A program made the position numbers and the translations under genes. 11,446 nucleotides of DNA, from assembly GCA_027604005.1 (NCBI GenBank), contig JADGJT010000574.1, positions 1 through 11,446 on the forward strand. The letters are read 5' to 3'. Below, piece after piece: positions 3,370 through 11,446 of this stretch. Position 1 is the stretch's first letter. Each line of letters starts with the position of its first letter. The stretch is from Dinochytrium kinnereticum. Its lineage: Eukaryota > Chytridiomycota > Chytridiomycetes > Chytridiales > Chytridiaceae. A model generated the notes under the pieces. It did no database searches and was not told where the DNA came from. It was given only the letters and a program-made list of their open reading frames with translations.

Positions 3370-5399
3370 TTAAACTGATTGTCCACCCCCTACCCTTCCC
3401 ATCCCAGTCCCAGCCCCTCTTCTCCCCTCTTCAACCCCGGAGCCGACAGAACTAGTTCCACCCCACCCAAAAATACTCCCAGCACTGTTCTGGGATCGAT
3501 AGGAGTTTCGGATCTCAAACGACATCTCTGTGAATGGTGTCAAGGCGACTGCAGGAGGTGGAGCCCTTTGCTGAATCTCCATCTGGTCCAGTAATGCTAA
3601 AACGGGTTCAAGCGATGCGACGGGGTTCTGGTTGCGAGGTTTGGCGGTTCGAGTTGTCGCGGATCGCTTTGACGCGGAACGAGCATTGGCAATCGACAGG
3701 GGATCCGTGCCTGCGTAGTTGGGGTAGCCGGGACCTGAGGAGGCTTCTGGCTGGTACTGACCGTACTTGGTGGGCGGGCTGGATGTAGACTGGGCTGCCA
3801 TAGCTTTGACGTAGCCGATGGTCTTTTTAAAGTGTCCAAGCCATTCCACCATATCATCCCTTGAGGCGCATTGCAGAGTCCAGGTTCGGAACACGGGCTG
3901 GTTGTCCTCATCCAGAAGCTGCTCCTTGCTGTCATGCGGGTTCATCAGGGCCGTCCTAACCTCCACCACCCAAAGCCCATGCTCACAGACAAATGCCTGA
4001 GACGAATCATCGAGCACTAGCCTGCCAATAGAAGGCTCGTTATGGTTGTCACCTGATCGGAATGCATAGACCGCATCGACGGACAGGACGATGAATCGCT
4101 TCTTCCAAAATGGAAGGCCCGTGGAATCACTTGAGGAGAGCTTGCCGAGGTACCCGCTGGCGATGGCGGATGTTCTGAGGAGCGTTGAAATGGTGATGGT
4201 CGCGGGTTGTTGCATCTGTTGGGCTGGTTGACGAGGAGGATGGGAATGGGAGCAGAAGGGAGATGCGGTTAGGGTTCGAAAAGCAGGGAATGAAGACGGC
4301 AGAGACGTTCGATATGGGAACGAGCACCAGCAGGGGCTCATAGGTTGCAAGCGTGTGGGGATGAAGGCATCATTGGCGACGCAATGAAGGCTCCCGCCCA
4401 TGCAAATGCCCCAGTGGAAACCACGGCGGTTTCTACCGTGAAGACAGGGAGCAAGCCCTCATCAAGAAGCCTCAGGTGAGACCAGAGCACAAGAAAAATT
4501 GCCGTCGCACAGAGCAATGCACCAATTATTGCAGCCATATGTTCGAGCCAAGGTCTGGTTTCTACTGCACTCACCCAGATTGACAAGCGACGCGCTGCTC
4601 AACGACGACACCATTGACGCCTCGTACGGCTGCTGCGGGAACTGCTGCGTCTGATGGTGCTGCTGCTGCTGGAGTTGGTGGTGGACAAACTGCTGCTGGT
4701 GCTGGTGCTGCTGCCATCGCCCTCCGCCTTCTCCTGCTTGCGGGCATGTGTTAGCAAAGAAAAGACGGAATGGAATGAATGGCAAAGCTCACCTTGCATC
4801 GCCCCGCCTCGCCTCAGGTGTTCCTCCTCCTCCTCCCAGTAGGACTCGAGAACATCATATACCTCGTGTGCATTCCTATCCATTCGCTGTCCCTGCTGCT
4901 GCTGGATGTCATAATCTCTGAAACCGTGCTGCACCGAGAGATGAACTGGCGACGCTGGGGAGTAGAGTGTGCGATCCTCGTCTTCGTCCTGCATGTTTCC
5001 GTTGGAGATAAAGGGCGGCGGAGTGCTGGATGAAGTCATGATGCTGGGTGAGCTCGGGTGCAGGTGGGGAGAATGCTGGGGCATCATCATTCGCTGATGT
5101 TGGATGTGGTTGTTCGGGGGAGATGGGTAGGCAAGGGGATGAGGACGTTGCTGTTGAGCAGTGATTGGGAGAGGAGGGGGGGCGGATGATCCAGCATCGA
5201 AACTCCTTTTGGGATCAGATCCAGCATCCAGAGACTTTTTTCTTCCATGGTTGTTGATAGGTGTGGCGTTGAGCTGCTTCTTGCCCAGCTTTTGGTCCTC
5301 CTTCGTCTTCTTGCCCTTGAAGGGTGAGTCGTCGTCGACGGATGAGACGGGCTTTTTCTTTTCGGGCGCCCTCGCGACGGGGACGTATGGCGGCAGCAT
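3370..5399 (-). CDS. disordered N-terminal half plus PH-domain protein (3 exons)
   Basis: The model joins exons 5399-4793, 4733-4575 and 4223-3370, giving 1620 nt and 539 residues with all phases consistent. Residues 1-255 are low complexity: Lys/Pro-rich at the start, two similar motifs LDAGSD and FDAGSS, a Met/His/Pro/Ser-rich stretch, a run of five Glu just before the first intron, then Gln/His-rich sequence. Residues about 276-393 form a pleckstrin homology domain: SGYLGKL start, FWKKRFIVLS strand, and a C-terminal helix DMVEWLGHFKKTI carrying the hallmark Trp. PH domains bind phosphoinositides or proteins at membranes, so a signalling or scaffold role is likely, but no catalytic domain is present. 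The C-terminal 145 residues are Ser/Gly/Arg-rich. The start at MLPPYVP is the first ATG; the frame is open upstream without one. Exon joins are my inference. Confidence 0.8.
4224..4574 (-). other. intron 2 of the PH-domain gene
   Basis: The donor is CTGG|GTGAGT. The acceptor is CAACCAG|CC, preceded by CCCTAACCG as branch point and about 40 bases rich in C and T. The phase (one base before, two after) restores an Ala codon and leads straight into the PH exon. At 351 nt it is longer than the other introns. Retention would add about 38 codons and stop at 4462, removing the PH domain. A small extra exon inside cannot be excluded by eye. Confidence 0.72.
4734..4792 (-). other. intron 1 of the PH-domain gene, tandem acceptor
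   Basis: On the minus strand the donor is CAAG|GTGAGC, a GCTAACAC branch-point match lies about 15 bases before the acceptor, and the intron is 59 nt. The acceptor reads AAGCAG, two AG sites three bases apart. Both keep the frame (intron ends at 4734 or 4737), so the two products would differ by one residue, GEGGG or AGEGGG, after MQ. I chose the CAG site because CAG acceptors are normally preferred over AAG. Confidence 0.85.
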
Positions 5400-7982: not shown

Positions 7983-8657
7983 GGCTCGTACAGCTTATCC
8001 GCAGAAGAGCAGGTTAGATGGTCTTGAGGAACGGGGGCAAAACGCTGGAGACTCGTGATTCTGTCCTTCGGCGGCTAGACCTCGAGCTCGCCGTTCTGAC
8101 GGTGGTGATGGGGAAGGAGGGAAGCAAGTGTGATGTCTGAGTGGAACCCACTGAACATTCTGTGGGTTGACCAGAACTGGCTGGACCAGACCACTTACCG
8201 CATATTTTTTCCATTTGAGCTGCAGGAGACAACCTTACTTCTTTTTTAAACTCAGAAAGCAGACACACTTGGAGTCATGATTTCATTGGCTGGCTGTTCC
8301 ACTCTGAATTGTCATGTATGGAAGACAGACACGCAAAACTCTACCGAGGTGCTGTGTCTTTTGCTGATGCGGCGGACGGTGCCCGTGCCGTGTGCACCAC
8401 GACTCAGTGGCGCCAAGTGGCGCGCCCCCGAGGGCCCTAGAAAGCGGCGCGCTCAAGCGCCATGTGTGATATGAGAATCGGTCTTGAACAATAAAGTTGC
8501 CATAAAGCCGCTTTTACTCCTCTCTTTCAGCGCCAGTGATGTTTATTCTAGCTCTCCGTCTCTTCTCCCTCCAATGACCCCTCTCAGGTTATGAATGTTT
8601 GGACTCAGTGTCATCAATCGGCGAATTTCCAAGGTACAAAAGGGAGGGAGGTGACAC
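7983..8657. other. upstream region of the secreted-protein gene, no gene seen
   Basis: On the minus strand this is the 5' side of the secreted Arg/Ser protein gene. A GTAAGT donor-like site at 8198 and a CTAAC with an AAG acceptor at 7994 could mark an intron in the 5' part of that transcript. On the plus strand there is a GC-rich patch at about 8371-8462 and an AATAAA at 8490-8495. Neither can be tied to a gene. The small plus frame 8277-8474 has no recognisable protein character. Confidence 0.55.
8371..8462. other. GC-rich patch with repeated GGCGC words
   Basis: About 90 bases are much richer in G and C than their surroundings. They contain two near-identical words, CAGTGGCGC and AAGTGGCGC, the palindrome GGCGCGCC, and a possible small hairpin GGCGC-gctcaa-GCGCC near 8445-8461. 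No coding or RNA-gene identity could be assigned. Confidence 0.5.
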
Positions 8658-8689
8658 AGTAGTTTTCAATATCTCTGTTGAAAACTACT
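8658..8689. repeat. perfect 12-bp inverted repeat (hairpin)
   Basis: The arms AGTAGTTTTCAA (8658-8669) and TTGAAAACTACT (8678-8689) are exact reverse complements, separated by the 8-base loop TATCTCTG. It lies about 280 bases upstream of the retroelement start codon. Confidence 0.9.
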
Positions 8690-8760
8690 AGGTATGCGAG
8701 CAGTTTGTAATAGCGAAAAGGTTGAATAAAGCTCACCATATCTCTGTTGAAAACTACTAG
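8669..8760. repeat. 23-bp perfect direct repeat, 69 bp apart
   Basis: The same 23 bases occur at 8669-8691 and 8738-8760, starting ATATCTCTGTTG and ending AACTACTAG. The first copy includes the right arm of the hairpin. The TGTTGAAAAC start inside the repeat resembles the TGTTG ends of many copia LTRs. A second inverted pair, TGAATAAAGCT (8723-8733) and AGCTTTATTCA (8797-8807), overlaps the region and carries an AATAAA on the plus strand. Confidence 0.88.
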
Positions 8761-8918
8761 ATTAAGAGTCTTGGCGCTCTCTTGACCGTCAGCTATAGCT
8801 TTATTCATCAAAACAAGGAGTCATCAAAAGCCTCACTTGGATCGAAGACACCGTCACAGAAAACACCGTCACCCAGAGGGTATCTGCCAAGCCGCCCAAG
8901 AGTCCTACTGACCTGACG

Positions 8919-8966: not shown

Positions 8967-11446
8967 ATGGGCAAGAGCAGCAAGAGCAGCAAAATCGCTG
9001 CGCCTAAAGTTTCCAGGACCATGAGCTCTGAAGACTTCATTCGTTTCGACAAGCTCCTCGCCATCAAGCTCAACTACGAGGACATGCCAAAGGAGTACTA
9101 CGCAATCTCCAAGATCTCAGAGCAGATGTACGGAGAGGTCAAGAAGCCAGAGCAGGCAGATTTTGTCAAGGATGTTACCATCGGCAACGCCGTCACCCGA
9201 GTACCTGATCAGGAGGCCTTCATGAAAATTCTCATCAAATGGGAAAAGGTCGAGAACATCATCAAGAAGGTCATCAGAGAGCTTGTCCCAGATCCTGAGC
9301 TGGTGGAGGCCTTTGAAGGCGAATCGTCATGCTACCTAGGCTGGAAGGCTTTTCAGAATGAGTTCAGCTTCTGCAGGAGCCGTGATCTTACCACAAGCAT
9401 GGACGCCATTGACAGCATCAGACAGGAGGGAGAAACCGTTCTTGCCTACGCCGATCGGCTCAATAGCGTGGTCCTACGTCTCAAGACCCTAGGGTACCCA
9501 CCAACGAACAAGCGAGACATCGCTGAGGAATTCGAAAACAAAGTCGCTCGCAAGTTCATCAATGGTATGACTCCTAGGAACAGAAGGATTTGGAATCCTA
9601 TGTTCGTCGGCATGAAAATCAACGAGGACTTCAAGAGGATGCGGGCTTTCGTCGCCAAGGAGGCCCAAGACGAGAAAGCCTCCAAGATTCAGAGGAACGA
9701 TCGGTCTGACTCAGATGAGGAAGACGACGGCAAGGCTCTCATGGGCAAATCATCCAAGCCCAAGAAGTACGACAAACCCAAAAGCAAGAGTCGAGGATCA
9801 TCAGGCAAGAGCACGGGATCAGAGCCTTCAATCTTCGTCGGGAACCTACCGTTCTCAGCCACTAATGACTCCCTGGTCAAATACTTCGAGGAGTCGGGGG
9901 CCATCAGTGGGTACGTCGTTCAGGACGGCGGACGCTCTGCGGGTTATGGGTTCGTCGCGTTTAAGACCAAGGGGGAAGCCGAATCAGCAGTCAGTAGGCA
10001 TGACGGGAAAGAGTTCAGCGGCCGTACCCTTCGCGTCGACCTATCCAAGGGCTCCAAGGGTCAGAAAAAGGGTAGCGACTCAGGCAAGGCTATGCGAGCT
10101 AAGCGTGATCAAGAATCGGACTCCTCTTCGGAAGACGAGGAAGAAGACGAGGACGAACTACCTGCTGGCTATGCGCTTTGTGCTACCTTGTTAGCTGATG
10201 TACCCTCGGACGAGGAAGATACTGAAGAGATTTCCCTCATCAACGCTTACCCATTTTGTGCCATGATGTCCAAAAGACAGGGAGGGGAGGAGAAAGTGAA
10301 ATATGGAACTACCTGGGGGTACATGGACTCTGGGTGCACCTCGCACCTCACCCCGACACTTGAGGGTATGACAAACTTGTCAACCTCGTTGACCAAACCG
10401 AGATTTCTAGTTGCTAGTGGGAACTGCATTGAAGGAAGTGGGGAGAAGGGAGACCTGGTTGGAACCGACGAGCACGGGCGTCATCTGGAGGTAAAGGGAA
10501 TTCACCACGTCCCAAGCGCCGAATGCACTCTCTTTTCGGTTTGGCAATTCCTCAAGGAAGGGAAGGATGTTTGGTTTAACCACAAAGACATGAGCGTTAA
10601 CATTGGAACGCTCTGGGGATCGGATCATCGGGTGGACGCCTCTGGGAAAGGAAAGAAAGGGATGTTCAAGCTGGTGCTCGATACGAAGGACTCAGAGCAT
10701 GCCAAGCTGGGTCTCGGACTGCCTGGAAATAAGGACACAGAATTATGGCACAGTCGGTTCATGCACGCCGCGTATCCGCAGATTCGACGGACCCTCGAAG
10801 CGGAGGCTGTACACGGGCTCAAGATAAAGGGAGACATACCGACAGACCCTTACTGCGAAGCCTGTGTAAAAGGGAAGATGCATAACTTCCCCTACCCAAC
10901 TGCCCCAACCAACCACTCTGCTGTCGGATGGACTGTGTCACTGGATATTCTCGTCATGAAGAAGGACTCTCTCTCGCTGGAGGGTCATAGATACTTCCTC
11001 GGCTTCTCGGTGAGAGAGACAGGCCTCAAGTTCGGATATGCACTGAAGCTGCGCTCTGAAGTCAAACGTTTTATAACGTTCGCCCGGCTATGGCTCGAGA
11101 AACAATCAGGAAAGCCCATCCTCCGATGGCACCTGGATAAAGCAGGGGAGCATAGAGATGGGAAACTTGTCCGCTCCTGCGAGGAACTTGGGATCGTGCT
11201 TGATTACACCAATACTGAAGCTCATGAACAGAACGGTGTGATTGAGCGCTGGTTCCGCACCGCTCTGGAGCGGGTTCGCTGCAACATTCTGGAAACCGGG
11301 GCACCGATCACACTTTGGGCGGAGGGGCTGCAAAACGCCTGCTATACGTACAACCGGCTGGTCCAAAGTGGCAGCACGATCACGCCATATGAGAAGACCT
11401 TCGGCCGCAAGCCAACAGTCACTGACCTTCGGGTTCTCTTTTGTGT
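8967..11446 (+). CDS. copia Gag-Pol polyprotein with RRM in Gag (partial at 3' end)
   Basis: Single open frame, 826 codons to the window edge. Residues 20-240 are a Gag capsid region, recognisable by YLGWKAFQ (123-130), a helix-rich stretch, QEGETVLAYADRL (153-165) and FINGM (197-201). Residues 288-361 form an RRM with RNP2 IFVGNL (289-294) and RNP1 AGYGFVAF (325-332). No CCHC zinc knuckle exists; the only Cys before the protease are isolated (122, 136, 405, 431). Acidic tracts lie at 247-254 and 383-397. The aspartic protease active site is MDSGCTSH (453-460), which processes the polyprotein. The integrase zinc site is H595, H600, C630 and C633. Its catalytic triad is D660, D724 and E760, with exactly 35 residues between the last two; the EQNGVIER block is typical of copia. 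The ATG at 8967 has a CCTACC-ATGG context. Gag and Pol are fused in one frame, as in many copia elements. Confidence 0.95.
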   Translation, partial: MGKSSKSSKIAAPKVSRTMSSEDFIRFDKLLAIKLNYEDMPKEYYAISKISEQMYGEVKKPEQADFVKDVTIGNAVTRVPDQEAFMKILIKWEKVENIIKKVIRELVPDPELVEAFEGESSCYLGWKAFQNEFSFCRSRDLTTSMDAIDSIRQEGETVLAYADRLNSVVLRLKTLGYPPTNKRDIAEEFENKVARKFINGMTPRNRRIWNPMFVGMKINEDFKRMRAFVAKEAQDEKASKIQRNDRSDSDEEDDGKALMGKSSKPKKYDKPKSKSRGSSGKSTGSEPSIFVGNLPFSATNDSLVKYFEESGAISGYVVQDGGRSAGYGFVAFKTKGEAESAVSRHDGKEFSGRTLRVDLSKGSKGQKKGSDSGKAMRAKRDQESDSSSEDEEEDEDELPAGYALCATLLADVPSDEEDTEEISLINAYPFCAMMSKRQGGEEKVKYGTTWGYMDSGCTSHLTPTLEGMTNLSTSLTKPRFLVASGNCIEGSGEKGDLVGTDEHGRHLEVKGIHHVPSAECTLFSVWQFLKEGKDVWFNHKDMSVNIGTLWGSDHRVDASGKGKKGMFKLVLDTKDSEHAKLGLGLPGNKDTELWHSRFMHAAYPQIRRTLEAEAVHGLKIKGDIPTDPYCEACVKGKMHNFPYPTAPTNHSAVGWTVSLDILVMKKDSLSLEGHRYFLGFSVRETGLKFGYALKLRSEVKRFITFARLWLEKQSGKPILRWHLDKAGEHRDGKLVRSCEELGIVLDYTNTEAHEQNGVIERWFRTALERVRCNILETGAPITLWAEGLQNACYTYNRLVQSGSTITPYEKTFGRKPTVTDLRVLFC
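9828..10049 (+). other. RNA recognition motif inside Gag
   Basis: About 74 residues follow the RRM pattern: beta1 SIFVGNLPF, helix 1 TNDSLVKYFEESG, beta2 ISGYVVQ, beta3 AGYGFVAF, helix 2 KGEAESAVSRHDG, and a final GRTLRVDLSKG. The aromatic residues that stack on RNA are present (F290 in RNP2, Y327 and F329 in RNP1). It sits where the nucleocapsid zinc knuckle is normally found, between capsid and protease. It is expected to bind the element's genomic RNA. Confidence 0.93.
10308..10571 (+). other. retroviral-type aspartic protease domain
   Basis: Residues about 448-535 hold the catalytic D454-S-G motif followed by CTSHL. About 60 residues later comes the strand IHHVPSAECTLFSVWQFLKEG in two parts, matching the copia pattern of a VP strand followed by LxSV. 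It acts as a homodimer that cuts the polyprotein in the particle. Confidence 0.88.
10749..11336 (+). other. integrase: HHCC zinc site and DD35E core
   Basis: The region starts with WHSRFMH (H595 and H600) and CEAC (C630 and C633), then SLD with D660, HLDKAGEH with D724, and EQNGVIER with E760. The D724-E760 spacing is the canonical DD35E. Around D724 the usual copia words D-N-G-G-E are replaced by D-K-A-G-E. The catalytic residues are all present. The domain joins reverse-transcribed DNA to the host chromosome. Confidence 0.9.

Follow-up and report, generated by a model that had tools for sequence, protein, structure and literature searches.

A Ty1/copia lineage of the chytrid Dinochytrium kinnereticum that probably carries an RRM in place of the CCHC nucleocapsid of Gag

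A CCHC nucleocapsid is the usual means by which LTR elements and retroviruses choose and chaperone their RNA. How a copia element might handle its RNA when Gag holds an RRM instead is the question raised by an 11,446 nt stretch of Dinochytrium kinnereticum DNA (the window), which is the entire contig C533 of a genome that was searched over 22.4 Mb in 558 contigs. A first-pass annotation, made from the sequence of the window, had described a full RRM between capsid and protease and a Gag without CCHC. We consider it probable that the window holds the 5' part of a fungal Ty1/copia-superfamily LTR retrotransposon, and that this element is a member of a separate clade whose Gag has a canonical cellular-type RRM in the nucleocapsid position, where it would be the RNA-binding and packaging part.

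The element is represented by a copia Gag-Pol open frame of 826 codons (8967..11444, + strand). The frame is uninterrupted to the contig end, which truncates it within the integrase; the reverse transcriptase (RT), RNase H and 3' LTR fall beyond the window. The encoded protein consists of a capsid, a lysine-rich linker, the RRM, a linker that is first basic and then acidic, a protease and an integrase, in that order. The capsid region (residues ~20-245, 9024..9701, + strand) was recognised by a profile-profile match to the capsids of CCHC-copia elements (probability 97.6 over 170 columns). Pfam makes no capsid call on the window protein, its best match being Retrotrans_gag with E 0.065, under the cut-off, and nothing matched when the capsid was compared with PDB sequences. 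By composition, the lysine-rich linker preceding the RRM lies at 9729..9827 (+ strand), and an acidic stretch in the RRM-protease interval, seen in the translation and its composition, at 10110..10163 (+ strand). The protease region includes the motif DSGCTSHLTP and a Pfam Pol_BBD match (residues 452-532, 10320..10562, + strand), and is followed by a GAG-pre-integrase domain (gag_pre-integrs, residues 588-638, 10728..10880, + strand; Pfam and alignment) and then by integrase up to the contig end. The complete domain order is visible in a relative on contig C493, where Pfam finds Pol_BBD at 469-550, gag_pre-integrs at 603-652, SH3 at 826-906 and RVT_2 at 1183-1418. This is the Ty1/copia order, with the integrase 5' of an RVT_2-type RT; the window stops in the integrase.

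A Pfam search of the translated frame, the check proposed in the first-pass annotation, located RRM_1 at residues 289-356 (9831..10034, + strand), inside the range of 9828-10049 given there. The match has an E of 4.5e-16, scores 58.9 bits where the curated cut-off is 20.7, and covers positions 1-70 of the 70 in the profile. Counted on the translation, RNP2 (IFVGNL) corresponds to 9831-9848 and RNP1 (AGYGFVAF) to 9939-9962. In a PDB sequence search the window RRM matched the RRMs of nucleolin, PABP, CstF64 and hnRNP proteins, with a best E of 1.1e-25, and when a Gag profile was compared with PDB chains the RRM part was responsible for the best 60 of 501 matches. The description of Gag as free of CCHC also holds, as the pattern C..C....H....C is absent from residues 1-450 of the window protein and the only cysteines through residue 440 are at positions 122, 136, 405 and 431.

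The window polyprotein finds relatives in the same genome on contigs C493 (45% identity, with a 1719-aa open frame), C464 (44%), C90, C173, C303 and C93, and at weaker places. The RRM is kept in five of the six copies that span the slot, the window counted, although two of the five are decayed. RRM_1 is intact in C493 and C464, in a slot identical to that of the window; C173 has an RRM above the Pfam cut-off with a stop codon inside the match, and the decayed C93 a partial RRM, also with a stop, that is still above the cut-off. In C90 the match jumps from about capsid residue 86 almost directly to the protease, indicating that the RRM was deleted together with much of the capsid. The contig end of C303 comes just past the capsid, so the slot lies outside. 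Copies of the same family lacking the RRM or having a CCHC motif had been named beforehand as evidence against the proposal; what was found is four further copies with the RRM and one loss by deletion. The supposition that the lineage is real and multi-copy fared less evenly. A DNA search with the 5' region of the window returned only the window itself and no further copy in the assembly, and DNA-level comparison of the window with the loci compared gave short matches alone, in C493 and C90, the families being far apart. The window's own family is therefore single in the assembly, and the lineage is multi-copy only via diverged families, which do carry the RRM.

Searches with the protease-integrase region retrieved at least 11 close polyproteins or fragments, in addition to P0040, a partial protein of Dinochytrium kinnereticum. 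The members of the clade come from a fungal genome and environmental DNA. P0040 is the nearest named match, with at most 86% identity over short pieces to copies in the window's genome. Each protein search scored only the ~8000 candidates with the most words in common with the query, and in one of them the best 120 of 139 matches were listed, making the size of the clade a lower bound. Among the matches listed, nine close relatives extend over the slot and every one of them has an RRM in it, in line with conservation of the RRM, which the first-pass annotation had proposed to check. It is above the Pfam cut-off in seven (P0002, P0003, P0033, P0034, P0035, P0037 and P0056), of which P0003 begins inside the RRM, and divergent, with weak profile matches, in P0004 (DbpA, E 0.0037) and P0005 (RRM_1, E 0.031). 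A clade RRM profile also matches these two, but they were included in building it and the match is not independent. P0036 and P0038 begin 3' of the slot. A CCHC-like motif occurs in the first 450 residues of none of the at least 12 clade proteins, three of which are without Gag. Outside the clade, a CCHC-type motif is present in the first 600 residues of 79 of 90 other matches of at least 1200 aa among the matches listed. The other 11 have no knuckle by the pattern used, so a Gag without CCHC is not in itself unusual. No clade element was found in scans of viral contigs and genome contigs, and a Gag-only database search gave a single match, a Hammondia RRM protein, which was of no use.

A Pol tree built from 48 rows places the window and its relatives in one clade of 14 rows (support 100/99; 200 of 200 bootstrap trees, the bootstrap being not fully settled). 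The tree sampled 39 of the 142 database proteins P0002-P0143, namely 11 clade members and 28 hand-picked others, together with rows from the genome itself; L016_1 was omitted for having too few columns, P0040 is absent, and P0036 and P0038 carry the RRM label by kinship only. The next branch is C503, from the same genome, whose frame begins in the RT at a contig end, which leaves its Gag unseen. The RT motif of the clade reads HxDD (HTDD, HADD or HSDD) instead of YxDD in all nine listed rows that reach it (C493, locus L009; P0002, P0003, P0004, P0005, P0033, P0034, P0035 and P0036), and also in L031 and L033. Outside the clade the first position is Y in 64 of 76 pattern matches, the remainder being partly chance; HVDD also occurs in P0069 and in a C303 fragment, and C503, the sister of the clade, has YVDD. 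CCHC Ty1/copia elements with a Retrotran_gag_2 capsid, such as P0006, share with the window clade the protease-integrase-RT order, Pol_BBD, gag_pre-integrs, SH3_retrovirus, RVT_2 and a homologous capsid. They differ in having CCHC and YVDD, whereas the window clade has the RRM and HxDD and stands apart as a separate clade.

The claim that the RRM replaces a CCHC nucleocapsid is supported by outgroup comparison. The capsid match quoted above was obtained with hhalign from nine clade rows against the first 40 of 74 eligible CCHC rows, and has an E of 4.6e-12, while an RT control scored 0.1. Furthermore, an element on contig C118 of the same genome (L016 3855-5267) has the CCHC sequence CQTCLYRGHTAPNC between capsid and protease and no RRM. 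Its capsid matches that of the RRM clade with a probability of 97.3 and the general CCHC set with 5.8. The contig ends in the protease, so the Pol of this element has no place in the tree. With its related capsid, the same primer site and a CCHC in lieu of the RRM, C118 makes a module swap the simplest reading. As CCHC is widespread in copia elements other than those of the clade, the simplest history is one in which CCHC was lost and the RRM gained, presumably in that direction. We infer that an ancestor bearing CCHC lost it and gained the RRM from a host RNA-binding protein.

The simplest history would also have a single RRM capture before the clade spread. It is possible, if not favoured, that there were instead several captures or exchanges within the clade. 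The RRM tree does not bring the element RRMs together but mixes them with host RRMs, requiring 5 changes, and a single element group appears in 0 of 200 bootstrap trees. Yet this tree rests on 72 columns with most forks open, and the AU test of a single group (p 0.11) leaves it unrejected, so that a single capture is neither shown nor rejected. Against repeated capture, the slot is identical in every covered member and Pol forms one clade. Several captures would not compete with the main functional reading.

Purifying selection on the RRM, also among the proposed checks, is evident from a codon comparison of two copies. Between C493 and C464, the RRM has a pN/pS of 0.25, the capsid 0.21 and protease-integrase 0.23, against 0.39 and 0.56 for the linkers flanking the RRM, with synonymous sites saturated (pS 0.74-0.85). 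In this pair the RRM is constrained about as strongly as the capsid and protease-integrase, and more strongly than both linkers. The values for the window against C493 (RRM 0.66, capsid 0.58, protease-integrase 0.38, linker 0.82) are less informative because both site classes are near saturation. As read from the alignment, the RNP2 aromatic is present in 11 of 11 aligned RRMs and the first and second RNP1 aromatics in 9 of 11 each; in P0035, P0056 and P0005 one or two of the RNP1 aromatics are gone.

The 5' LTR of the window element was placed at 8635..8760 (+ strand) from its repeats and comparison with other elements. Its start, at the TATA-like TACAAAAG, is approximate, and its borders are deduced, the LTR being single-copy. 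Comparison with other elements also placed two hairpin arms in it (8658-8669 and 8678-8689, + strand), and a repeat search found a near-identical pair, X1 (8669-8691) and X2 (8738-8760), on the same strand. The spacer between them (8692-8737, + strand) is intron-like, beginning with GTATGC and containing AATAAA at 8725-8730. The primer-binding site AGATTAAGAGTCTTG (8759..8773, + strand) is the complement of nt 28-42 in the host tRNA-Lys(CTT), a complementarity for which 0 cases are expected from 200 shuffles; a gene for this tRNA was found in 2 of 20 loci scanned. The site is common to the window, C493, C464, C303 and C118, and in C414 it is on the opposite strand. It pairs with the anticodon arm, as if the 5' half of tRNA-Lys(CTT) were the primer. 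Drosophila copia, which has a CCHC Gag, is primed by an internal, anticodon-side part of tRNA-iMet. The window element resembles it in that its primer site also pairs with an internal tRNA segment on the anticodon side, but differs in the tRNA, tRNA-Lys(CTT), and in its RRM. Both LTRs are complete in no copy here; C493 retains its 3' LTR but only the final 27 nt of the 5' one. The stop codon of pol in C493 (L009 ~4710-4740, minus strand) is part of a TATAAG right behind the purine run GGGAAGGGG, and U3 is therefore seemingly only ~30 nt.

The same LTR plan recurs in other loci. A scan for exact repeats (at least 18 nt, within ~150 nt) in 25 sequences (~172 kb), which were chosen for copia, RVT_2 or RRM matches and give no genome-wide rate, found ten pairs, in the window and in L009, L010, L011, L016, L017, L024, L026, L031 and L032. 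AG|GT can be read after the first copy in each, and AATAAA is present in eight of the ten spacers, the exceptions being L024 and L031. The strand of the pair agrees with the neighbouring copia in 8/10; in L024 the nearest RT match lies on the other strand, and L032 is ambiguous. X differs between elements and is near-identical within each. Eight X fragments, picked by eye and folded without a shuffled control, form hairpins whose stems pair with different letters. The plan is not universal, as some primer sites have no exact X pair upstream, several of them nevertheless being preceded by CAG; nor is it a mark of the RRM clade, since the CCHC element C118 has it as well.

The segment between X1 and X2, with AG|GT at its start, AATAAA within and X2 ending in AG, has the look of an intron flanked on both sides by a copy of the terminal repeat. 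The element RNA would start before X1 and end in the X2 of the 3' LTR, and the segment from GT to the AG of X2 would be spliced out of its 5' end. At the proposed GT...AG borders, splicing would join X1 directly to ATTAAGAGTC; R would then abut the primer site and the early AATAAA would be removed. Reverse transcription would keep X1 and X2 alike.

With regard to function, the RRM and its lysine-rich flank are proposed to be the RNA-binding part of Gag. A packaging role is suggested by the location of the RRM in the nucleocapsid place, the interval between capsid and protease, by its basic flanks and by the ability of RRMs to bind single-stranded RNA. Gag would use the RRM to select and package the element RNA, and the RRM would assist primer annealing and strand transfer, the work of the CCHC nucleocapsid elsewhere. 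It is unlikely, in our view, that the RRM is real and selected yet serves the element RNA otherwise, in its splicing, export, translation or localisation, or binds a host RNA, with the lysine-rich linkers acting as nucleocapsid. Some Gags without CCHC, such as that of Ty1, rely on basic tails, and K and R are abundant in the linkers next to the RRM, making up 13 of the 49 residues before it; moreover, the LTRs look as though the element RNA were spliced. However, the linkers are the least constrained parts, and the intron-like LTR of the CCHC element C118 indicates that this feature needs no RRM. Returning to the RRM as packaging module, a more elaborate version is speculative and rather improbable as a whole: that an old copia lineage swapped its zinc knuckle for a host-type RRM and packages an RNA whose first R has been spliced to the tRNA-Lys primer site, the RRM reading the terminal R hairpin as packaging signal.

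That RRMs are known from LINE ORF1 proteins, as the first-pass annotation stated, agrees with PMC4120745 and PMC3905857. They are common there (L1, Jockey, Tad1 and others), and a LINE ORF1 protein could have been the source of the RRM instead of a host gene. We regard this origin as quite improbable, as the best sequence matches are to cellular RRMs of the nucleolin, PABP and hnRNP types, in a search of PDB sequences. Compared by domain content, both systems have a protein encoded by a retroelement and equipped with an RRM that is thought to bind the element's RNA; the LINE proteins, from a different class of element, are without the Gag capsid, aspartic protease and integrase, all present in the window clade. 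An assembly join at the RRM borders, or a host exon that a single copy picked up by accident, has a negligible chance of being correct and is refuted by independent copies, for although the contig end truncates the window element, whose 5' region is single-copy, the layout is repeated in C493, C464, C173, C93 and nine database proteins from other sources.

A literature search found no description of an RRM-bearing copia Gag; most subscription papers were beyond reach, so absence from print is not implied. The accessible part of the main text of a survey of LTR elements in fungi (PMC3248453) has no mention of RRM, and RRM_1 in the accessible part of PMC10691877 concerns host genes. The analysis suggests that a copia lineage handles its own RNA with a borrowed part. 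If this is true, the clade would be a natural swap experiment, showing that an RNA-binding fold of unrelated type can be fitted into the Gag scaffold and offering a case in which a well-understood domain might read the packaging specificity, and the RRM Gag would parallel the RRMs of LINE ORF1 proteins.

Two minor observations concern the surroundings of the elements. In C464 (L010 6622-6889) the element breaks off in the integrase straight into TTAGGG telomere-type repeats at the contig end, and this junction is close to the codon at which the window contig ends, a coincidence. Elsewhere in the window, a frame at 3370-4401 (- strand) has a PH-domain match of 25.0 bits, against a Pfam cut-off of 25.1, and is probably an ordinary host gene.
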